Shown piece by piece: positions 40,738-59,006 of a stretch of 64,000 bases of DNA. The stretch lies in contig NZ_CP100355.1 in assembly GCF_024204665.1 (NCBI RefSeq), forward strand, positions 2,895,451 through 2,959,450. The letters run 5' to 3'. The DNA is from Natronosalvus rutilus (lineage in GTDB: Archaea; Halobacteriota; Halobacteria; Halobacteriales; Natrialbaceae). Under the pieces are notes generated by a model. That model made no database searches. It saw only the letters and a program-made list of their open reading frames with translations, and had not been told where the DNA came from. The position numbers and the translations under genes were made by a program. How positions within the stretch are numbered: the stretch's first letter is position 1; each line of letters starts with the position of its first letter.

Positions 40738-41139
40738 CTACTCGTCTCCGGATGCCGACTCCTCGAGCCAGCTGCCTGCCCAGCACTCGATCTCATCGAA
40801 GACCGGTTCGAGCGAGCGGCCCTTCGGCGTCAAACTGTAGTAGGTCGCGATCGGCGCGTCCTCCTCGAGCCGCCGGTCGACGAACCCAAGTTCGCCCAGG
40901 TCCTCGAGCACCCGCGAGAGCGTCCTGGCATTGGCGTCAGTGGCGCGTTTGAGTTCGTTGAAGCGGTACTCGCCCTTCTGGAGTTCGTGGAGGACGGCGA
41001 GTCGCCACTGTGAACCGATCTGCTCGATCGAATCGATGACGGGGCACGGAGAGTCGTCGGGTTCGGATCCGACGGCGACGTCGCCGTCAGTGGACGTTTC
41101 GGCGCGGTCGACCTCGAGTGGAGTGGATTCGGATGACAT
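40738..41139 (-). CDS. HxlR-family transcriptional regulator
   Basis: A 133-residue winged-helix protein. The HxlR core lies at about 30-125: CPVIDSIEQIGSQWRLAVLH, ELQKGEYRFNELKRATD, ARTLSRVLEDLGELGFVDRR and YSLTPKGRSLEPVF. A conserved cysteine starts the domain and could sense redox change. An acidic tail of about 30 residues precedes it. It is divergent from the flavin reductase gene; HxlR proteins often control the adjacent oxidoreductase. Confidence 0.88.
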   Translation of the reverse strand: MSSESTPLEVDRAETSTDGDVAVGSEPDDSPCPVIDSIEQIGSQWRLAVLHELQKGEYRFNELKRATDANARTLSRVLEDLGELGFVDRRLEEDAPIATYYSLTPKGRSLEPVFDEIECWAGSWLEESASGDE

Positions 41140-42075: not shown

Positions 42076-42624
42076 GTGAGCGACCGACGAGAGGATGCCT
42101 CCGGTGAGAACCCGGCGACTACCGGGGAGATGACTCCTCGAGCGGAGCCGTTGCCGCTCGTCGACGTCCTCGAGACGGTCGCCGTCGGCGCCGCGCCGCC
42201 GCTGGCGCTGGGGCTGTTCGCGTTGCTGGTTCCGTCAGTACCGGTCGGCCAGGCGGTCTTCGTCGGCGTCCTGTTCGGCGCGATTCTCGCGTCGTACCGA
42301 CGAGGGATCGAGGCCGTCCGAGCCGAAAATGGGGACGGGATAAAACGTCGTCTTCGCGTCCCCGACGCCGACGACCCCCAGGGCAACGGATCCGCGCTAC
42401 TCGCTCACCTGGCCGCTCGAGTCGAGGGCACCGTCCTCGAGTGGGTCATCGTCGGGGCCGTAGGAGCGATTGGACTCGCTTCCGCCGTCGAGCTCGCCAC
42501 CGTCGGGTTCGAACGGGTTGCCCCTCGAGTGCTCCTGTTCGGCCTGCTGTGTGGTCCGGCGGCCCTGTTCGCGGTCGTGGTGCGATTGGGGGCGCCGAAT
42601 AGACAGGGCGAGGACCAGAGATAG
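42076..42624 (+). CDS. Multi-pass membrane protein, function unknown
   Basis: A 182-residue protein with a GTG start (MSDRREDASGENPATT). About four hydrophobic segments are visible: about 35-55 (VAVGAAPPLALGLFALLV), 58-78, 120-140 (WVIVGAVGAIGLASAVELAT) and 150-172 (VLLFGLLCGPAALFAVVVRL). A cytoplasmic-looking charged loop lies between the second and third. No family is recognised. It precedes the ABC exporter operon by 144 nt, with a G-rich tract directly after its stop. Confidence 0.75.
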   Translation: MSDRREDASGENPATTGEMTPRAEPLPLVDVLETVAVGAAPPLALGLFALLVPSVPVGQAVFVGVLFGAILASYRRGIEAVRAENGDGIKRRLRVPDADDPQGNGSALLAHLAARVEGTVLEWVIVGAVGAIGLASAVELATVGFERVAPRVLLFGLLCGPAALFAVVVRLGAPNRQGEDQR

Positions 42625-42768: not shown

Positions 42769-43680
42769 ATGATCGACGTTGCTGATCTACGCAAGGAGTA
42801 CGGCGGGTTCGTCGCCGTCGACGGCAGTTCGTTCTCGATCGGTCGCGGCGAGGTGTTCGGCGTCGTCGGTCACAACGGCGCCGGCAAGACTACGACGCTG
42901 AAGATGCTCGCGGGGTTGATCGAACCGACCGACGGAACCGCGGTGGTGGCCGGACACCCCGCCGGATCGTCGGCGATGCAGCGCCGTCTGGGCTTCCTCC
43001 CCGAGGAGTCGCCGCTGTACGAGGAGATGACGCCCATCTCCTACCTCGAGTTCTTCGCGGACCTCTACGACGTGCCGGACGACGTGGCGAGCGAGCGCAT
43101 CACCGCCCTACTGGATCGCCTCGACCTCGAGCACCGCGACCGAAACCTGGGCAATATGTCGAAGGGGATGAAGCGCAAGGTCGCCATCGCACGCGCGCTG
43201 GTCAACGACCCCGACGTACTCATCTTCGACGAACCCGCATCCGGGCTCGATCCTCTGACCACGAACGCCATCCTCGAGTTCACGCGGGAACTCAGCGAGG
43301 AGGGGAAGACGGTCGTCTTTAGCGCGCACAACCTCTTTCACGTCGAGAGCGTCTGTGATCGCCTCGTCATCATGGCCGACGGCGAGATCGTCGCTCGCGG
43401 GACCATCGAGGACATCCGCTCGACCTACGGCGGGACGAGTTACCAGGTCTTCGTCTCCACGGACGGAGAGGAGGTGGTGGGAAGCGACGCGATCGCCGCC
43501 CCGGTAGCCGAGATCGCCCGCGAAAACGGTGGCCTGCGATACGTAGTTCGGAACATGGACGGCGTCGACGCCGTCCGCGACGCTGTGGAGGCGGCCGGCG
43601 GTTCCGTCACCGACATCCAGACGAAGACGCCGAGTCTCGAGGAGATCTTCCTCGAGGTGGCCGGGGAGGCGGCCGCGTGA
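42769..43680 (+). CDS. ABC transporter ATP-binding protein (ABC-2 exporter)
   Basis: A 303-residue ATPase. Walker A is GHNGAGKTTT near residue 39, the signature is NMSKGMKRKVA (a variant of LSGGQ), and Walker B is VLIFDEPASGLDPL. The D-loop, Q-loop (FLPEESPLY) and H-loop (VFSAHNLFHVE) are in place. A C-terminal domain of about 80 residues matches NatA-type exporters. It overlaps the next gene by GTGA, so ATPase and permease are coupled. The substrate is unknown; drugs, lipids or sodium are all known for this class. Confidence 0.92.
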   Translation: MIDVADLRKEYGGFVAVDGSSFSIGRGEVFGVVGHNGAGKTTTLKMLAGLIEPTDGTAVVAGHPAGSSAMQRRLGFLPEESPLYEEMTPISYLEFFADLYDVPDDVASERITALLDRLDLEHRDRNLGNMSKGMKRKVAIARALVNDPDVLIFDEPASGLDPLTTNAILEFTRELSEEGKTVVFSAHNLFHVESVCDRLVIMADGEIVARGTIEDIRSTYGGTSYQVFVSTDGEEVVGSDAIAAPVAEIARENGGLRYVVRNMDGVDAVRDAVEAAGGSVTDIQTKTPSLEEIFLEVAGEAAA

Positions 43681-45689
43681 CGGCTGGCCCCTACTCGAGT
43701 GACGTCCAAGCCGCCGGTTCGACCGACTCGATGGGTTCTGCCGATTCGACTGGCTCGACCAACTCGTCCGATTCGTCCGATTCGACCGACTCGACGTCGA
43801 GAGCGGACGCCGCTCGCGGCTTCGTCCACCGAACCGCCCGAATCGCCCGCTGGGAAGTCTCCCGGAGCGCCAGCACGGTCGACCGGAAGACCGTCCTGAT
43901 CGTCCTCGCGCTCGCCCTCGTCGTCGGTGCAGTGGGTTTCGCGACCATGGACGAGGGCGTCGGCCTCGAGGACGGGCTCTACACCGTGGCCGTCGACGAG
44001 GAGAGCCCCTACCACGCGGTCGCCGTCGAGAATCCGACGTTCACGGCCGTCGAGCCGGGTACCGAGGCCGACGTGCACGTATACCGCGGCGACGTGATCG
44101 ATCCCGGCCGGGCACAGACCTCGAAAGAGAGGGCCGCCTACGCCGCGTTCGCCGACGCCGTCGAGACGTACAACGAGGAGCGAATGTACGCAGAGGACGA
44201 CCAGACCGCCGCGTTTCCCGTCAGTGTGACCTTGACCTACCAGCAGCGATCCGGCCCTAATTCAGTGAGCGGCGGGGACGGCTCGAGCGATGGCGGACCG
44301 ATCGATTCCATCGGCGATGGCTCGAGCGATGGCGGACCGATCGATTCCAGCGGCGATGGCTCGAGCGACGGTGGATCGACCGGATCCAGCGGCGGTTCGA
44401 CAGACGGTGGTGACGGCTCGAGTGGCGACGGCTCGAGCCACGGTGACGGCGGCGCTCCTGCGGACTCGAGCGGCGGATCTGGTTCAGGCATCAGCGTGCC
44501 GGAGTTCGGCGGCGGTTCGATCGAGGAGTCGAGCCAGCCCCAGACCCCGGGCTCGATCACGCCGCCGTTTCCCTTCCGGTCGCTCGTGCTCGCGTTCCTG
44601 TTCGTCGTCCCGATGAACTTCGTGATCCAGTCCTACGGGAGCACGATCATGGACGAACGGATCAAGCGCCGCGGCGAACTGTTGCTGGTCTCGCCCGCCT
44701 CGCGATACGAAATTGTCGCCGGGAAGACGCTCCCCTACCTGCTGGGACTCCTGGGAATTGTCGTCGCCATCGCGTACGGGATCGAGGGGAGCTGGCTGTC
44801 GGTCGCCGCCGTCGTCCCCGTCGCATTGGCCTTTCTCGCGGCCACGTTCGTCGGGGCGATGTTCGCCCGCTCGTTCAAGGAACTCACGTTCGTCACGGTG
44901 ACGGTTTCGGTGGTGCTGACGACCTACGCGTTCGTGCCGGCGATCTTCACGAACGTCACGCCGATCTCGTTCATATCGCCGCTGACACTTGTCGTCCTGG
45001 ATCTTCAGGGCGAGAGCGTTCGCCTCGGGGAGTACCTCTTCTCGACTGCACCGCTGTCTCTCGGCGCGCTCGTCCTCTTCGGCCTCGGCCTCGGGAGCTA
45101 CCGCGAGGAGGACATGTTCACCCAGAAGCCGATCCCGTCGAAGGCGATCGACGCCGTCGCCGCCCACGTCCACGGGTACGCCAGCGTGCTCGCGATGCCG
45201 GTCGTCTTCATTCCGTTCGTCTTCGCCGGCCAGTTGCTTACCGTCGCGCTCGTCTTCGCGCTCCCGCAGACCGTGTCGCTCCCGATCGTCTTCCTCGTCG
45301 CCGCGCTCCTCGAGGAACTCGCCAAGAGCCTACACGTCTACGCGGGCTACGCCCACTCGCGGTTCGAGGCGTCCGTCCGAACCGCCGTCGTCCTCGGGGC
45401 GCTCTCGGGACTCGGCTTCTTCCTGGGCGAGAAGCTCACCCACGCCGTCCAGTTCGTCGGGCTTCCTAACCTGCTCGAGGGACAGGCCGCGTTCGGTCCC
45501 TCGCTGTCCGGTGCCCCCGTTGCTGTGGTGGTCGCCGTCTTCCTCGCACCGCTGGCGTTGCACGCCGTGACGGCGATTATCGGGGCGATTGGCGCCAGCC
45601 GAGGCCGGACCGCGTACGCACTCGGCCTCACTGCCGCGACGCTCGTTCACGCGATCTACAACCTCGGGGTGATCGCGCTTGTCGCGTGA
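43677..45689 (+). CDS. ABC-2 permease fused to PrsW-type intramembrane protease
   Basis: A 670-residue fusion starting with GTG. A Ser/Thr/Asp-rich N-terminus (about 1-55) leads to an ABC-2 permease, with one early membrane segment near 78-92, a large external loop, and several segments between about 300 and 480. The loop contains a 39-bp tandem repeat. Residues about 490-670 form a PrsW-like protease with its four conserved sites: EELAKSL near 545, GFFLGEKL near 582, ALHAVTAIIGAIGASRG near 628 and LVHAIYNLG near 660. The active-site Glu and His residues are all present. Confidence 0.82.
   Translation: MTAGPYSSDVQAAGSTDSMGSADSTGSTNSSDSSDSTDSTSRADAARGFVHRTARIARWEVSRSASTVDRKTVLIVLALALVVGAVGFATMDEGVGLEDGLYTVAVDEESPYHAVAVENPTFTAVEPGTEADVHVYRGDVIDPGRAQTSKERAAYAAFADAVETYNEERMYAEDDQTAAFPVSVTLTYQQRSGPNSVSGGDGSSDGGPIDSIGDGSSDGGPIDSSGDGSSDGGSTGSSGGSTDGGDGSSGDGSSHGDGGAPADSSGGSGSGISVPEFGGGSIEESSQPQTPGSITPPFPFRSLVLAFLFVVPMNFVIQSYGSTIMDERIKRRGELLLVSPASRYEIVAGKTLPYLLGLLGIVVAIAYGIEGSWLSVAAVVPVALAFLAATFVGAMFARSFKELTFVTVTVSVVLTTYAFVPAIFTNVTPISFISPLTLVVLDLQGESVRLGEYLFSTAPLSLGALVLFGLGLGSYREEDMFTQKPIPSKAIDAVAAHVHGYASVLAMPVVFIPFVFAGQLLTVALVFALPQTVSLPIVFLVAALLEELAKSLHVYAGYAHSRFEASVRTAVVLGALSGLGFFLGEKLTHAVQFVGLPNLLEGQAAFGPSLSGAPVAVVVAVFLAPLALHAVTAIIGAIGASRGRTAYALGLTAATLVHAIYNLGVIALVA
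44277..44393 (+). repeat. 39-bp tandem repeat, three units, inside the permease-protease gene
   Basis: Units begin at 44277, 44316 and 44355 and encode 13-residue blocks of the type DGSSDGGPIDSIG. Units 1 and 2 are nearly identical and unit 3 is diverged. It forms part of a Gly/Ser/Asp linker in the external loop. Confidence 0.85.
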
Positions 45690-46851
45690 GCCTCGAGCGG
45701 ACGACCGAACAACCGAGAGCGAGCGCGGGAACGGGCACGTCCGCGGGCCCGAAGACGAGCGTGGACAGGAGAGCCACCGCGAGCCCGAGCACACGGAATC
45801 GACTCTGCACGCTCGACTCGCCATCGTCCGCCGCGAGTGGCGCTCCCTGCGCTCGGAGAAGACCATCGTACTCGCGCTGGCCATCCAACTCGTCATCGCC
45901 GGCTTCTCGGGCTTCCTGGTCGTCGGCCTCGTCTCGCTGTACGACCCCGGCGCGGTCGACGGTCAAGAGATGACCGTCGCGCTCACCGGCGACGACAGGG
46001 ACGCCCTGCTCGAGGTCGTCCACGATCGAGAGGCCATCGAACCGCGGCTCTACGACGACCGCGGGGCCGCCTACGCGGACTTCGATCGGCGAGCGGTCGC
46101 CGTCGTCGTCGAGACCAACCGCCTCGAAAACGGCCGGCTCTCGATCGTGGTCACGGCGCCCGACGAGGGGATCGGGACGACACTGTTGATCTCGGAACTG
46201 CAGGAGACGTTCCGCACGGTTGAGTTCGAAGAACGGCAGGCGAACGCCGACCGTCTCGAGTCGCCACCCCTGTCCGTGCCTACGACGAGCGCGACCCCGT
46301 ACTTCGGGTTCACCTACACCGTTCTGGTGCCGCTCCTGTTGTTCCTGCCGGTGTTCATCAGCGGCTCGATCGCTGTCGATTCGCTGATCGAGGAGCGCCA
46401 GCGCGGCACGTTAGAGTTGCTCCGGGTGGCGCCGTTGTCGTTCCCGGACGTGATCGACGCGAAACTCGTCGCGACGGCCAGCCTGGCCCCGCTACAGGGA
46501 CTCGCTTGGCTCCTCCTGCTCGCGTTCAACGGAACGGCGATCGCCAACCCGGCGGCGCTGATCGTCTTCGTCGCCGCGTTGGCGTTGCTCATCGTCGCGC
46601 TCGGAATGGGTGTGGCGCTGTACGCCCCGGATCGACGCCAGGCGCAGTTGCTCTACTCGGCGGGCATCGTCGGCCTCCTGGTCGTCACGTCACTGTTGCC
46701 GGAACATCCCGCGAACACGGTTGCGAAACTGGCCATCGGGAGCGAGACGACGACGACCTGGCTCCTGTTCCCCGGCTACGTCGTGGCCGGTCTCGGGGCG
46801 TACCTGTTGCTCCAGTGGGGGCTCGAGCGGGTCGATCAGGCGGCTCTCTAA
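45679..46851 (+). CDS. ABC-2 type permease
   Basis: A 390-residue membrane protein with a TTG start, overlapping the previous gene by 11 nt. A charged N-terminus of about 55 residues precedes the first membrane segment (VLALAIQLVIAGFSGFLVVG), then a large external domain (about 85-205) and about five segments from residue 213, including FGFTYTVLVPLLLFLPVFIS. SLIEERQRGTLELLRVAPLS is the ABC-2 permease signature (the EERQRGT coupling helix). It likely pairs with the permease-protease protein and the ATPase to form the exporter. The exact start is uncertain. Confidence 0.86.
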   Translation: MSREPRADDRTTESERGNGHVRGPEDERGQESHREPEHTESTLHARLAIVRREWRSLRSEKTIVLALAIQLVIAGFSGFLVVGLVSLYDPGAVDGQEMTVALTGDDRDALLEVVHDREAIEPRLYDDRGAAYADFDRRAVAVVVETNRLENGRLSIVVTAPDEGIGTTLLISELQETFRTVEFEERQANADRLESPPLSVPTTSATPYFGFTYTVLVPLLLFLPVFISGSIAVDSLIEERQRGTLELLRVAPLSFPDVIDAKLVATASLAPLQGLAWLLLLAFNGTAIANPAALIVFVAALALLIVALGMGVALYAPDRRQAQLLYSAGIVGLLVVTSLLPEHPANTVAKLAIGSETTTTWLLFPGYVVAGLGAYLLLQWGLERVDQAAL

Positions 46852-46904
46852 GGGGACTCGGAGTCGGCGCGCCCGCCGACCCTCCACCGCCGCGACCCGA
46901 GTAG

Positions 46905-46910
46905 TTATAC
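46905..46910 (+). promoter_or_regulatory. TATA-like box near the penicillin acylase start
   Basis: TTATAC lies 27 nt before a GTG at 46935 but only 15 nt before ATG 46923. It would fit a leaderless start at 46935, and suggests a promoter of its own for the acylase gene. Confidence 0.35.
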
Positions 46911-46922
46911 GCTATCCCCCGA

Positions 46923-49427
46923 ATGTCATCGGCCGTGAACGAAGAAATCACCCGCCGGGGTGCACTCGCTGCGGGTGTCCTCGCGGGCGTCGCCGGCCTC
47001 TCGCTCTCGTCTGCGAGCGACCTCCTCGAGCAGTTCGCGCCGCTCTCGGGGTCCGCCTGGAACGCGGCCGATCGGGAACGCCCAGAACGCGTCGAGAGTC
47101 CCTACGGCGACGCGACTGTTCGAATCGACGACGAGGGCGTCCCCCACGTCGAGGCGGACGACGAGCGGGCGGCGTACTTCGCCGTCGGCCACCTCCACGG
47201 GTTCGACCGCGGCTTCCAGCTCGACCTCCAGCGTCGCCAGATGCGGGGCGAACTGTCGGCCGTCGTCGGTGAGACGACCCTCGAGAGCGACGAGTTCCAC
47301 GTCCGGATGGACTTCGCCGGGGCCGCCGAGGCGACCTGGAACGCCCTCGAGGGGACCCACGCCGGGTCGCTCATCGAGGCCTACGCCGACGGCGTGAACG
47401 CGGCGCTCGAGGGCACGACGCTCCCGCTCGAGTTCGAACTGCTCGAGTTTGAGCCGGACCCGTGGGTGCCCGCCGACACGCTCTTGATGGAGAAACAGAT
47501 CGCATGGACGCTCACGGGGAACTTCAGCGCTCTTCGGGGACGCGTGCTCGAGGACCGGCTCGATCCGGCGATTCTCGAGGCGCTGTTCCCCGAGCGGATG
47601 GACCACGACACGCCGGTGCTGCGAACGGACCCGGAGCACGTCGATAATCTGGGAGAACTCCGGGGCGTCCGTACCGGCGAGGACGGTTCGGAAGACGATG
47701 CAGCCGACGCCGGCGACGAGAACGAGGGGACGACCGACGTCCACGACTCGAGTCCCTCCTCCCTGGCGACCTGGCTCTCGCGATTCGAGTCGCCGCTCGG
47801 CGTCGGCTCGAACAGCTGGGTGGTCTCGGGCGAGCACACCGAGAACGGGACGCCCATCGTCGCGAACGACCCGCACCTCCAGTTGATGACGCCGCCGCTG
47901 TGGTACGAACAGCACGTCGAGACCCCGGAGACCTCGGTTCGCGGAGTGACGTTCCCGGGCGTCCCCTTCGTCATCATCGGCGCCAACGAGGTCGCCGGCT
48001 GGGGCTTCACGAACGTCGGCGCGGACGTCCTCGACTGCTACACCTACGAGATAGACGACGAGAACGAGCGCTACCGCTACCGTGGCGAGTGGCGCGAGTT
48101 CGAGACCGAGGAACGCGAGATCGCCGTCTCGGGCGGCGAGAATCGAACGGTCACCACCAGGAAGACCGTCCACGGCCCCCTGCTCGAGCGCGAGGGCGAG
48201 ACGGTTGGCGTCGCCTGGACGGGACTCAGCGCGACCCGGACGACCGAAGCCGTCTACGACCTGACGGTCAGCGAGGGCGTCGACGACGCGCTCGAGGCCG
48301 CCAGCCGGTTCGACGTGCCGACCCAGAATCTCGTGTACGCGGACGCGGACGGACGGACACTGTACGTCGCCGTGGGCCAGTTGCCGATCCGCAGGGAGGG
48401 CGACGGCTCGAGCGGCGAGCCGATCGCGGACAACCGCGTTTTCGACGGCACCGCGGGCGAGGGCAAGTGGACGGGGTACGAACCCTACGGCGTTTCCGAC
48501 TGGGAAGCCGGCGGGTTCGTGCCATTCGAGGAACATCCCGCGGCGATCGAGCCCGACTTGTTGGCGACGGCAAATCAGCGGACCGCGGACGATACGGAGC
48601 ACTACGTCGGAACCGCCTACGCGATGCCCTATCGTGGTCGGCGGATCTACGACGTGCTCGATGCCGCAGCCGACGAAGGCACGGCAACCAACCTCGCCTT
48701 CCATCGAGACCTCCAGACCGACCGTCGCGACGAGCGCGCCGTCGACACGATTCCCGATCTACTCGAGGCCGGAACTGCGGCACTCAAGGACGGGACGGTC
48801 GACGATTCCGACCAATTCGAGGACGCCATCGAGACGCTCGAGGACTGGGGTCCGGAGTACGAGATGGTGCGCGACTCCCGCAGAGCCCTGCTGTTCGCCC
48901 GCTGGTTCGAGCACCTCCGAGCAGAGGTCCTGGAGCCGATCTTCGACCCCGCCGACCTCGGTTCCGAGTACTACCCGAACGACTGGATCGTCGCGACGCT
49001 GCCAGCCGAGAGCCCGGTTTTCGAGGACCGCTCGCGGGAGACGATTCTCGTCGAGACGCTCGAGACGACCCTCGAGGAACTCGAGGCCGAAGGGTGGGAC
49101 ACCTACGGCGACTGGAATACCACCGGGCCCGTCGGGCACCCCTTCGGCAGCGAGGCGCCGTTTCTCAGTTACGACGAGCGACCGACCGACGGCTCTCGGA
49201 CGACGGTCGACAACTACCGCGTCGAGAGCGCCGTCGGCGCCAGCTGGCGGATGGTGGTCGAACCCGGGGCCGAAGCCTGGGCGATCCTCCCCGGCGGAAA
49301 TTCAGGTGACTACTTCTCGCCTCACTACGACGACCAGTTCGAGCGGTGGGCCGACGGCGAGTACAAGCCGATGGACCTCGAGGCCGCCGGCGAGACGGCG
49401 ACGCGGTTCGAGGGGGTGGACCGATGA
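46923..49427 (+). CDS. Penicillin acylase family protein (Ntn hydrolase)
   Basis: An 834-residue N-terminal-nucleophile amidase. A Tat-like signal (EITRRGALAAGVLAGVAGLS) precedes the alpha subunit region (about 60-290: HVEADDERAAYFAVGHLHGFDR), a spacer, and the predicted autocleavage site in VGSNSWVVSG near residue 300, where Ser would become the nucleophile. The beta region holds NDPHLQLMTPPLWYE, GVTFPGVPFVIIGANE and the final GGNSGDYFSPHY. The family cleaves amides such as acyl-homoserine lactones or penicillins; the substrate here is unknown. Start 46923 is used, but GTG 46935 fits the promoter better. Confidence 0.9.
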   Translation: MSSAVNEEITRRGALAAGVLAGVAGLSLSSASDLLEQFAPLSGSAWNAADRERPERVESPYGDATVRIDDEGVPHVEADDERAAYFAVGHLHGFDRGFQLDLQRRQMRGELSAVVGETTLESDEFHVRMDFAGAAEATWNALEGTHAGSLIEAYADGVNAALEGTTLPLEFELLEFEPDPWVPADTLLMEKQIAWTLTGNFSALRGRVLEDRLDPAILEALFPERMDHDTPVLRTDPEHVDNLGELRGVRTGEDGSEDDAADAGDENEGTTDVHDSSPSSLATWLSRFESPLGVGSNSWVVSGEHTENGTPIVANDPHLQLMTPPLWYEQHVETPETSVRGVTFPGVPFVIIGANEVAGWGFTNVGADVLDCYTYEIDDENERYRYRGEWREFETEEREIAVSGGENRTVTTRKTVHGPLLEREGETVGVAWTGLSATRTTEAVYDLTVSEGVDDALEAASRFDVPTQNLVYADADGRTLYVAVGQLPIRREGDGSSGEPIADNRVFDGTAGEGKWTGYEPYGVSDWEAGGFVPFEEHPAAIEPDLLATANQRTADDTEHYVGTAYAMPYRGRRIYDVLDAAADEGTATNLAFHRDLQTDRRDERAVDTIPDLLEAGTAALKDGTVDDSDQFEDAIETLEDWGPEYEMVRDSRRALLFARWFEHLRAEVLEPIFDPADLGSEYYPNDWIVATLPAESPVFEDRSRETILVETLETTLEELEAEGWDTYGDWNTTGPVGHPFGSEAPFLSYDERPTDGSRTTVDNYRVESAVGASWRMVVEPGAEAWAILPGGNSGDYFSPHYDDQFERWADGEYKPMDLEAAGETATRFEGVDR

Positions 49428-49789
49428 CGACTCGCGAAGGCGGGAACGGGGCGTCAACGACGGCACGAGCGACACTGACTCGCATTCGAACCGAGCGCCC
49501 GCTTCACCTCCTCGCCCTGCTAATCTCCGTGGGCCTCGGGCTCGCCCTCTCGTGGCTCCACTGGATCGGCCTCGTCGTTGGCGGCGTCCTCGTGGGTCTC
49601 GTCGCGCGCAACCTGCCGAAGGCGCTCGGCTACGGCCTCGGATTCGGCCTCGTCGTGCTCGTCGTCTTCGCGTTCGTGCTTGGTAGTGGTCGAGGCCCAG
49701 CGCTCGAGATGGCACCCGCCATCTACCTCACCGTCGGTGCGGCACTCGGACTCCCCATACTTGGGTCGCTGGCTCGAGGCATCGTCTGA
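49424..49789 (+). CDS. Small membrane protein, 121 aa, function unknown
   Basis: A 121-residue protein starting MTTREGGNGASTTARATLTR. Four hydrophobic segments are visible: LHLLALLISVGLGLALSWL, WIGLVVGGVLVGLVA, GYGLGFGLVVLVVFAFVL and MAPAIYLTVGAALGLPILG. The start overlaps the acylase stop as ATGA, so it is coupled to that gene. It could be a helper or an anchor for the acylase; this is inferred from position. No family is recognised. Confidence 0.76.
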   Translation: MTTREGGNGASTTARATLTRIRTERPLHLLALLISVGLGLALSWLHWIGLVVGGVLVGLVARNLPKALGYGLGFGLVVLVVFAFVLGSGRGPALEMAPAIYLTVGAALGLPILGSLARGIV

Positions 49790-55989: not shown

Positions 55990-57317
55990 GCGTCGAAACC
56001 GAGAGCGGACCGCCCGGAGCAGACGACGCCTCGAGCGGGGGCGACCCGTCGACCGTTCGCGAGGTGCTGGCCCGGGAACTGGCCGCGACCGACTTCCGGA
56101 TCATCCTGGTCACGCTCCTCGGCGTGTACGCGCTGTTCGCCGTGTTCACGTTCCTGGGCGGCGGCGGTCTGAATACCCTCGGCTCGACGTGGGTGCAGCT
56201 CACGTTCTGGTTCGCGGCCTACGCCGTCCTCGCCCTGGCGTTGAACCTCCAGTGGGGGTACACGGGGCTGTTCAACATCGGTGTCGCGGGCTTCATGGCC
56301 GTCGGCGTCTACACGATGGCGATGCTCTCGACGTCGCCGGAGGCGATTTCGGGAATGGGGCTCGGCCTCCCGCTCGTCGTCGGTGTTATCGGTGGCATGA
56401 CCGCCGCAGCGCTCGTCGGACTCATCGCCGCCGTCCCCGCGTTGCGACTTCGTGCGGACTACCTCGCCATCGTCACGCTCGGCCTCTCCGAAATCATCCG
56501 ACTGACGGCCAACTCCAAGACGCTTTCTGACTGGACGATGGAGACGTTCGGGTTCGGAACCGGCGGCGGTAGCGGAACGGACCTCCCCGCTCGGCCGACC
56601 GACTCCCTGACCAACGAGTACCTCCTGCCGGTGGTCCAGGGCTCCGGTCTCGAGATCACCGATGCGGTCGTCAGACGGTTTATGTGGGTCCTCGCGATGA
56701 TCGGCTTCGTCATCGTCATCTACTGGCTCCTCGCCAGAGTGGGGAACTCTCCGTTCGGACGAGTGCTGAAAGCAATCCGTGAGGACGAACTCGTGGCGCA
56801 ATCGCTCGGGAAGGACACGCGGTGGTTCAAGATCAAGGTCTTCATGCTCGGGTGCGCGCTGATGGGACTGGGCGGCATCCTCTGGCAGGGTTCGCGAGGC
56901 TACGTCAGTCCGAACTCGTTCATGCCGATCGTCACCTTCTACGTGTTCATCGCCGTCATCGTCGGCGGGTCGGGTTCGAACACGGGAAGCGTGGTCGGGT
57001 CGATTCTCTTCGTCGGCCTCCTGTTCGAGGGGCCGCGAACGGTCGCGAGCCTCTTTTCCAATGCAGTCGAGCTCGGCGCGGTTCCCAGCACGTTCGCCGG
57101 GGCGGTCGAACCGCTTGCCGTCTTCAACTTCGCGCCGCTGCTCGCGTACCTGTTCGAAAACATCTCGGCGCTCCGGTTCGTGCTGCTCGGGATCGTTCTG
57201 ATCCTCATCATGCAGTACCGCCCCGACGGCGTCCTCGGCCACCGCACCGAGTCGGCTGCGGCCATCGACCTGGGCCGAAACGGGTCGGCTCCCGCTAGAG
57301 GTGACGACAATGAGTGA
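55986..57317 (+). CDS. livM: Branched-chain amino acid ABC permease LivM
   Basis: A 443-residue permease. After an acidic N-terminus (about 1-30), about ten transmembrane segments follow. LALNLQWGYTGLFNIGVAGFM and LRADYLAIVTLGLSEIIRLT are LivM signatures. The cytoplasmic loop GRVLKAIREDELVAQSLGKD is the ATPase contact. Compared with bacterial LivM it has a larger loop (about 178-225). It overlaps livG by 8 nt, and the tail (VLGHRTESAAAIDLGRNG) is polar. Confidence 0.93.
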   Translation: MSVETESGPPGADDASSGGDPSTVREVLARELAATDFRIILVTLLGVYALFAVFTFLGGGGLNTLGSTWVQLTFWFAAYAVLALALNLQWGYTGLFNIGVAGFMAVGVYTMAMLSTSPEAISGMGLGLPLVVGVIGGMTAAALVGLIAAVPALRLRADYLAIVTLGLSEIIRLTANSKTLSDWTMETFGFGTGGGSGTDLPARPTDSLTNEYLLPVVQGSGLEITDAVVRRFMWVLAMIGFVIVIYWLLARVGNSPFGRVLKAIREDELVAQSLGKDTRWFKIKVFMLGCALMGLGGILWQGSRGYVSPNSFMPIVTFYVFIAVIVGGSGSNTGSVVGSILFVGLLFEGPRTVASLFSNAVELGAVPSTFAGAVEPLAVFNFAPLLAYLFENISALRFVLLGIVLILIMQYRPDGVLGHRTESAAAIDLGRNGSAPARGDDNE

Positions 57318-58161
57318 CGCGACCAGAACTGACACGGCGACGAAGGGGACCGAGACGCACGAATCGGCTGCGAGCGACGAAACCGCCGACGGCATCCCAC
57401 TCCGCGTCGAGAACCTGCGAAAGACGTTCGGCGGCATCGTCGCCGTCGACGACGCGACCTTCGAGGTCGAGGCCGGATCGCTCACCGGACTCATCGGTCC
57501 GAACGGCGCCGGCAAATCGACGACGTTCAACTGCATCGCCGGCGCTCACGCACCCGACTCGGGCACGGTCACGTTCCAGGGCGAGAACATCACAGGTCTC
57601 CGCCCCGAACAGATCGCCAACCGGGGCCTCGTTCGGACGTTCCAGATCGCGCGCGAACTCGAGGAGATGACCGTCCTCGAGAACCTGATGCTCGCCCCGA
57701 AGGGACAACGCGGCGAATCGCTCTGGCGCTCGGTGACCCCGTTCGCCCGCGGCGAGGTCGTCGATCAGGAACTCGAGATTCGCGAGCGAGTCTGGGAGAT
57801 GCTCGAGTTCTTCGAGATCGACCACATCGCCCACCACGAGGCCGGAACGCTCTCTGGCGGCCAGCGAAAGCTCCTCGAGATGGCCCGGGCGTTGATGACC
57901 GACCCGGACATGGTGTTGCTCGACGAACCGCTCGCGGGCGTCAACCCGACGCTCGAGGAGAAGTTGCTCGAGCGGATTCACGAACTGCGCGGGCAGGGGT
58001 ACACGTTCCTGCTCGTCGAGCACGACATGGACGTCATCATGGAGAACTGCGAGCACGTCATCGTGATGCACCAGGGGTCGGTGCTGGCCGAGGGTGAACC
58101 GGAAGCGGTGCAGCAAAACGAACGCGTGATCCAGGCGTACCTGGGGGAGATGGACGTATGA
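57310..58161 (+). CDS. livG: Branched-chain amino acid ABC ATPase LivG
   Basis: A 283-residue ATPase. Walker A is GPNGAGKSTTF near residue 63, the signature is GTLSGGQRKLLEMARAL, and Walker B is MVLLDEPLAGVNPT; the H-loop is LLVEHDMDVI. An acidic N-terminal extension (about 1-28) is typical of haloarchaeal proteins. ATG 57310 is chosen over 57301, since both overlap livM. It overlaps livF by ATGA. Confidence 0.94.
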   Translation: MSDATRTDTATKGTETHESAASDETADGIPLRVENLRKTFGGIVAVDDATFEVEAGSLTGLIGPNGAGKSTTFNCIAGAHAPDSGTVTFQGENITGLRPEQIANRGLVRTFQIARELEEMTVLENLMLAPKGQRGESLWRSVTPFARGEVVDQELEIRERVWEMLEFFEIDHIAHHEAGTLSGGQRKLLEMARALMTDPDMVLLDEPLAGVNPTLEEKLLERIHELRGQGYTFLLVEHDMDVIMENCEHVIVMHQGSVLAEGEPEAVQQNERVIQAYLGEMDV

Positions 58162-59006
58162 GTGCCGATCAGCCAGAGTCACAGACACAGACGGCCGAAA
58201 CCGAGGCGAACCGATCGACCGAACCGACGGCGGGTGGCGAAAGCGATAGCGATGGCGACGGGGTCTCCGCGCTCCGGGACCCGCTGGCGACCGTCCCCGA
58301 GGAGACCATCCTCACCGTGCGCGACCTCGACGCCGGCTACGGCGACCTGCAGATTCTGACCGACGTCGACCTCGACGTCGGCGAGGGCGAGTACGTGACC
58401 ATCGTCGGCCCGAACGGCGCCGGCAAGTCGACGGTCATGAAGTCGGTGTTCGGCCTGACGACCTACATGGGCGGCTCGATCACCTTCCAGGACGAAGAGA
58501 TTCACCCTCTCGATCCCGAGGATATCATCCACAAGGGCATCAGCTACGTCCCCCAGAACGAGAACATCTTCGGGACGCTCACGGTCGAGGAGAACCTCGA
58601 GATGGGTGCGTACATTCTCGACTCGGTGCCCGAGGATCGACTCGAGGCCGTCTACGAACGGTTCCCGGTGCTTCGAGAGCGCAAGGACCAGAAGGCCGGA
58701 ACGATGTCCGGCGGGCAGCGACAGATGGTCGCGATGGGACGGGCGCTGATGCTCGACCCCGACCTGCTGCTGCTAGACGAACCGTCGGCCGGCCTCGCCC
58801 CCGACCTGGTCCAGGACATGTTCGACCGGATCGACCGGATCAACGACGACGGGACGGCAATCTTGATGGTCGAGCAGAACGCCAAAACCGCGCTCAGGCG
58901 CTGTGATCGAGGCTACGTGCTCGCCCAGGGTGAAAACAGCTACACGGACACCGGAGACCGGTTGCTGGCCGACGACGAGGTGCGCCAGCAGTTCCTCGGC
59001 GGGTGA
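58158..59006 (+). CDS. livF: Branched-chain amino acid ABC ATPase LivF
   Basis: A 282-residue ATPase, last gene of the operon. Walker A is GPNGAGKSTVM near residue 93, the signature is GTMSGGQRQMVAMGRAL, and Walker B is LLLLDEPSAGLAP, the shorter LivF version. The N-terminal 45 residues are an acidic, disordered extension. The ATPase pair LivG-LivF drives transport through LivHM. A T6 run at 59031-59036 follows and may end the operon. Confidence 0.94.
   Translation: MSADQPESQTQTAETEANRSTEPTAGGESDSDGDGVSALRDPLATVPEETILTVRDLDAGYGDLQILTDVDLDVGEGEYVTIVGPNGAGKSTVMKSVFGLTTYMGGSITFQDEEIHPLDPEDIIHKGISYVPQNENIFGTLTVEENLEMGAYILDSVPEDRLEAVYERFPVLRERKDQKAGTMSGGQRQMVAMGRALMLDPDLLLLDEPSAGLAPDLVQDMFDRIDRINDDGTAILMVEQNAKTALRRCDRGYVLAQGENSYTDTGDRLLADDEVRQQFLGG

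Follow-up and report, generated by a model that had tools for sequence, protein, structure and literature searches.

In Firmicutes, EcsAB is required for intramembrane proteolysis by RasP, and a role in ridding the membrane of peptides has been proposed for it (PMC2996298). In Staphylococcus aureus, Eep and EcsAB are needed together to process and secrete fragments of lipoprotein signal peptides (PMC7157817), and PptAB exports the pheromones of streptococci (PMC5167397). The link between protease and exporter rests in bacteria on the genetics of separate proteins. Here we describe a three-gene locus of Natronosalvus rutilus, contained in a stretch of 64,000 nucleotides of contig NZ_CP100355.1 (positions 2,895,451 to 2,959,450; hereafter the window), in which a permease of an ATP-binding cassette (ABC) exporter and a PrsW-type intramembrane protease are encoded as a single polypeptide. 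The sequence of this fusion provides direct evidence that a single machine can combine intramembrane proteolysis with ABC export.

Five open reading frames (ORFs) lie one after the other on the plus strand of the window, the first three of which, here named A, B and C, encode the exporter. A preliminary description of this DNA had proposed an ATPase, a protease-fused permease and a second permease in overlapping genes, and this arrangement was confirmed at the same coordinates in the ORF list of the window, with overlaps of 4 nucleotides between A and B and 11 nucleotides between B and C. The features of the exporter are the following (window coordinates; TM, transmembrane helix):

42769..43680, plus strand: A, ABC ATPase of the DrrA type, 303 residues (PF00005, PF13732)
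43677..45689, plus strand: B, predicted ABC-2 (type V) permease with a C-terminal PrsW-type protease, 670 residues, GTG start
43887..45119, plus strand: permease half of B, approximately residues 71-481, with TM1, an extracellular domain, a disordered acidic Gly/Ser linker and TM2-TM6 (AlphaFold2 model)
44277..44565, plus strand: disordered Gly/Ser/Asp linker in the extracellular part of B (confidence of the model, composition)
45096..45158, plus strand: conserved permease-protease junction YREEDMFTQKPIPSK (alignment of 56 haloarchaeal sequences)
45177..45686, plus strand: PrsW-type intramembrane protease domain of B, approximately residues 501-670, five predicted transmembrane helices (PF13367, alignments)
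45679..46851, plus strand: C, second ABC-2 permease, 390 residues, TTG start (PF12698)

The last 200 residues of B match the PrsW family PF13367 with 30.9 bits (E 2.5e-7, curated cut-off 23.5), a match that was recovered at the same place in a whole-genome scan (29.7 bits), and PF13367 is the only family matched by the fused protease in the Pfam scans. When the full 670-residue chain was scanned against Pfam, PrsW was not reported, probably because of the low-complexity linker, and the protease domain could therefore easily be overlooked by annotators; the one annotated copy of B that was inspected is labelled only as an ABC transporter permease subunit. All four PrsW motifs that had been claimed for the C-terminal part of B are present (E546-E547-x-x-K550, F581-x-x-x-E585, H629 and H658-x-x-x-N662). 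Also, profile comparison aligned the fused domain motif by motif with the stand-alone PrsW of the same genome (E 1.7e-5). The latter is encoded at G000:C1:242363-242944 (L001), and stand-alone PrsW genes are nearly universal in the relatives analyzed (a set of 80 genomes, that of the window included), independently of the presence of B.

The catalytic signature is practically invariant across 119 aligned homologues of B, with the residues EE, K, E, H and H found in all 119, N or D at the last position in 119/119 and F in 118. In two distant sets of homologues the mean identity of the protease part to the window copy is 34% and 28%, respectively, and the ratio of non-synonymous to synonymous substitution rates calculated with six relatives is low and similar in both halves of the protein (0.07-0.36 in the protease part, 0.06-0.32 in the permease part). 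A signature that hardly changes within a diverging domain, together with these low ratios, indicates selection on the protease for its active site, and we infer from these sequence patterns that the fused protease is active. The divergence of the domain might alternatively be taken as a sign that it is catalytically dead and serves as a merely structural membrane module of the transporter, given that its PF13367 match begins at profile position 21, that 15 of 49 homologues of B match this family at an E of 0.01 or below, distant ones often falling under the threshold, and that non-catalytic members of the wider superfamily, such as APH-1, exist. This explanation seems very unlikely to us, since the catalytic residues are kept over deep branches down to the lower of the two identity levels.

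The permease half of B is weakly recognized by Pfam (ABC2_membrane_3, 24.3 bits, cut-off 31.6), and its nature was assessed on an AlphaFold2 model of B obtained from an alignment of 56 sequences (mean predicted local distance difference test score (pLDDT) 77.9, predicted template modelling score 0.72). The model consists of TM1, a small extracellular domain, the disordered acidic linker, five more permease helices, the junction and five protease helices. Values of pLDDT are mostly 80-96 in the permease half outside the linker and mostly 84-98 in the protease part, and below 50 for most of residues 190-297, corresponding to the linker. The linker is a repetitive stretch of Gly, Ser and Asp containing GDGSSDGGPIDS units (44277-44565), the length of which varies among relatives. 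In a comparison with structures of the PDB, residues 47-488 of the model align with ABCA7 (Z 16.5, root-mean-square deviation 3.3, 221 residues aligned), NosY (Z 16.1, 204 residues aligned), ABCA3 and ABCA4 (both with Z about 16), and on the strength of this model the permease half has the fold of a type V exporter permease. The presence of a PrsW domain and an ABC-2 permease in the single chain of ORF 43677-45689, as previously proposed, is thereby borne out, the former by its Pfam match and the latter by structure. The comparison of the whole model hardly tested the protease half, and a model of the PrsW domain predicted with no alignment was of poor quality (pLDDT 56) and was not used. A sequence profile search of the PDB yielded no relative of B, and nothing was found by comparison with viral structures.

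Between both halves lies the junction YREEDMFxQK, in which Y475, R476, E477, E478, D479, F481 and Q483, as well as K489, are invariant in the 56 haloarchaeal sequences. This degree of conservation suggests that protease and permease are coupled in a fixed manner rather than by a loose tether.

The two partners of B complete a transporter. ATPase A matches PF00005 (105 bits) and PF13732 (42.9 bits) in the Pfam scan, has intact nucleotide-binding motifs (Walker A GHNGAGKTT, Walker B LIFDEP) and is closest to drug-exporter ATPases (drrA model 235 bits, yet below its cut-off), while permease C matches PF12698 (56 bits). In each of the 43 B-bearing relatives the gene for C adjoins that for B, and A is found beside B in nearly all haloarchaeal loci. 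The three genes are co-oriented in haloarchaea, and in most loci of the other archaeal lineages A points away from B and C. When neighbouring ORFs of at least 110 residues were compared against reference loci, A, B and C were the sole genes consistently common to haloarchaeal and other archaeal loci. Judging from sequence and gene order, A-B-C is one type V (ABC-2) exporter unit encoded by a conserved three-gene block. The conserved block with joint absence that had been put forward as a test thus comprises these three genes, and not all five ORFs.

Upstream of the unit, an HxlR-type regulator is encoded on the minus strand (40738-41139); such a gene occurs upstream, on the opposite strand and at variable distance, in 46 of 79 haloarchaeal exporter loci. 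A small ORF of membrane type directly upstream of A (42076-42624) has no Pfam match and is absent from every related exporter locus fetched.

The distribution of the fusion was analyzed at several levels. B is present in 43 of the 80 relatives, and in every case a single chain holds both permease and protease. Phylum-wide, 203 of 393 sampled genomes have matches to the combined permease-protease alignment, in most cases over nearly its full length. A scan of named genomes yielded 233 confirmed places, and among the best 80 of these, which were kept, the fusion occurs in genomes ranging from Natrinema to Halorubrum, Haloferax and Haladaptatus; its nearest named relative is the protein of Natronosalvus hydrolyticus. 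Methyl-coenzyme M reductase was detected in 16 of 22 further fusion-bearing genomes tested, indicating that methanogens or their kin carry the fusion as well, and several others lack that enzyme. One copy of B was found on a plasmid, in Haladaptatus. The persistence of the fusion in many independent genomes implies that it is due neither to chance nor to sequencing error, and the evolutionary distances of its two halves correlate (r = 0.93), as expected for one old fusion inherited whole. Across haloarchaea, methanogens and further lineages the fusion has been kept with a near-invariant catalytic signature, in a protease that often scores below the Pfam threshold.

Two loci deviate from this pattern. 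In Halorussus salinisoli, which also has a complete unit (L068), a second, orphan copy of B (L111, 9260-11194) is flanked by unrelated genes on either side, with no homologue of A or C in the locus. In one draft genome (G106; L133, 8441-10196), A and C are in place and B is split into two overlapping frames, with the frame change near the linker, possibly as a result of an assembly error.

Type V exporters draw hydrophobic molecules from the membrane, and intramembrane proteases yield hydrophobic peptides in that same place. This chemistry, along with the ties between exporters and separate proteases known from Firmicutes, favors a coupled process in which A-B-C would be a type V exporter whose fused protease cuts membrane peptides or helices and whose transporter part extrudes them, a reading to which we assign about an even chance of being correct. 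The simplest predicted assembly, of presumed stoichiometry, would contain ATPase A as a homodimer and permeases B and C as a heterodimer, with the PrsW-type protease held at the end of the last permease helix of B by the conserved junction. The protease would cleave a helical peptide inside the membrane, and the adjoining transporter would pick up the hydrophobic fragment so released from the membrane and expel it at the expense of ATP. Candidate substrates include remnant signal peptides, tails of sorted surface proteins and precursors of small exported peptides. The inferred steps of this scheme are the activity of the protease, the handing of its substrate to the transporter and the direction of transport. 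A role for the protease in maturing or releasing a membrane or exported peptide, much as earlier proposed, represents the most reasonable interpretation of the sequence data.

Several points weigh against coupled cutting and extrusion. The exporter unit is missing from about half of the genomes, which argues against a universal housekeeping function. No gene for a precursor peptide is conserved beside A-B-C among ORFs of at least 110 residues, shorter ORFs not having been compared. The signal-peptide-peptidase family PF06550 is present in all well-assembled relatives regardless of B, and is therefore uninformative as a functional substitute for it. Also, the protease might have targets that have nothing to do with transport, or could regulate the transporter.

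In an alternative explanation, the exporter would remove a toxic compound (a drug, a lipid or an antimicrobial peptide) and the protease would be a regulatory sensor, the conformation of the transporter controlling the cleavage of a membrane-bound regulator. The rigid conserved junction fits such a mechanical coupling, the patchy distribution fits a stress system and the ATPase is nearest to those of drug exporters. There is also a precedent in Bacillus subtilis: its PrsW is a site-1 protease that acts on an anti-sigma factor (PMC9263693, PMC4602095), and by cleaving RsiW it triggers the sigma-W response to antimicrobial peptides. In the reference-locus comparison, however, no conserved membrane-bound regulator was found beside the unit, and the upstream HxlR-type regulator is present in 46 of the 79 haloarchaeal loci, as mentioned above, and lies at very variable distances. 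Moreover, we know of no archaea with a sigma/anti-sigma system of the PrsW/RsiW kind. Overall, a sensing protease is a possible explanation that falls on the unlikely side.

Coupled cutting and extrusion has a more far-reaching version, according to which A-B-C would represent an ancient archaeal apparatus for the production and export of peptides excised from membrane proteins, with cutting and pumping in one polypeptide. This we judge to be unlikely; if true, the machine would be an archaeal counterpart of the peptide pheromone processing of Firmicutes, and peptide signalling or peptide antibiotics of haloarchaea and methanogens could be based on it. As Haloferax species carry the fusion, its function is testable in tractable archaea.

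Downstream of C, after a gap of 71 nucleotides, two further genes follow that overlap each other by 4 nucleotides:

46923..49427, plus strand: penicillin amidase family acylase of the twin-arginine translocation (Tat) type, 834 residues; neighbouring module, outside the exporter (PF01804)
49424..49789, plus strand: small membrane protein coupled to the acylase, neighbouring module (4-nucleotide overlap, conserved position)

The identification of a Tat-type penicillin acylase followed by a coupled membrane protein stands, given its PF01804 match (612 bits), the twin-arginine start TRRGALAAG and the overlap of the two genes. Residue S296 aligns with the first residue of the beta chains of solved acylases, that is, with the nucleophile position. 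The closest solved relatives are D-succinylase (E 1e-46) and cephalosporin acylases, PvdQ being far weaker (E 4e-13). An assignment as acyl-homoserine-lactone acylase, an activity that the preliminary description had mentioned for this family, is not supported, the NCBIfam model of PvdQ scoring 52 bits against a cut-off of 950.

That description had further placed all five genes in one system, in which the Tat-exported acylase would modify or destroy, outside the cell, a signal of peptide or lipid nature released by the exporter-protease. The neighbourhood itself is real within one family: among 28 exporter-bearing genomes of the Natrialbaceae type, 16 have the acylase gene adjacent to the exporter, on the same strand and no more than about 3 kb downstream of B, and 4 have it elsewhere. 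Outside this group, adjacency was seen in none of the 8 genomes with both, some of which are drafts with the genes on different contigs. Nor is presence associated, for the 49 Natrialbaceae-type genomes include 20 with both modules, 8 with the exporter only, 14 with the acylase only and 7 with neither (Fisher p = 0.76). Where the exporter is lacking, the small membrane protein still comes after the acylase, which often has beside it the HxlR-type regulator and aldo-keto reductase genes that flank it in the window, so that the block represents a conserved chromosomal context with two separable modules. TATA-like sequences seen by eye before the start of the acylase at the adjacent loci suggest that it has a promoter of its own, and likewise speak against a single system. 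Judging from their distribution, the acylase and the small membrane protein are a separate module that neighbours the exporter within one haloarchaeal family; conserved separately in haloarchaea, it merits its own study. A five-gene system is thus the least probable of the explanations considered, below a dead protease domain and a sensing protease, with coupled cutting and extrusion ranked first.

Elsewhere in the window (57301-59006), two overlapping genes encode ABC ATPases that are closest to LivG and LivF of branched-chain amino acid import, both scoring below the model cut-offs.

Reviews on Haloferax volcanii list the PrsW-like protease HVO_0408 and make no mention of an ABC fusion (PMC9263693, PMC4343526), and no description of a fusion between PrsW and an ABC permease was found in the open-access papers searched. 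The claim that no such system had been described has to be qualified in view of NCBIfam NF041647 and of the well-known pairing of EcsAB with RasP or Eep. Like B, the proteins of NF041647 combine an ABC-2 permease and a subsequent glutamate-type intramembrane protease in one chain; their protease belongs to the CPBP family, whereas that of B is a PrsW. B gave no match to NF041647 at E values up to 0.1, and the cut-off of this model, 435 bits, is not reached in any of 41 haloarchaeal genomes. Joining a permease to an intramembrane protease is an idea already catalogued; the variant with PrsW, its setting among three genes and its archaeal distribution seem to be undescribed in the open-access papers searched.

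The PrsW of B. subtilis and the archaeal HVO_0408 share with B the signature EExxK, FxxxE, H and HxxxN/D; they stand alone, whereas the fused domain, situated behind a permease, has a short helical core and represents a divergent branch. PCAT exporters resemble B in uniting exporter and protease in one polypeptide. Their C39 domain is a cytosolic cysteine protease that removes leader peptides and is carried by an ABC-B type exporter, the folds being unrelated to those of B in both halves. Functionally, the nearest parallels are EcsAB with RasP (B. subtilis, S. aureus) and PptAB with Eep (enterococci, streptococci), in which, as in A-B-C, an ABC exporter is tied to an intramembrane protease. 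They differ in that exporter and protease are separate proteins, in that RasP and Eep are metalloproteases of the site-2 type and not PrsW-type enzymes, and in that EcsB is described as a homodimeric permease domain, in contrast to the pair formed by B and C. The EcsB model is not among the Pfam matches of B and C, which are to ABC2_membrane models, no comparison having been aimed at EcsB. The likeness is one of function alone: in these bacteria membrane peptides are processed and then exported, and the same order of events is what we propose for A-B-C.

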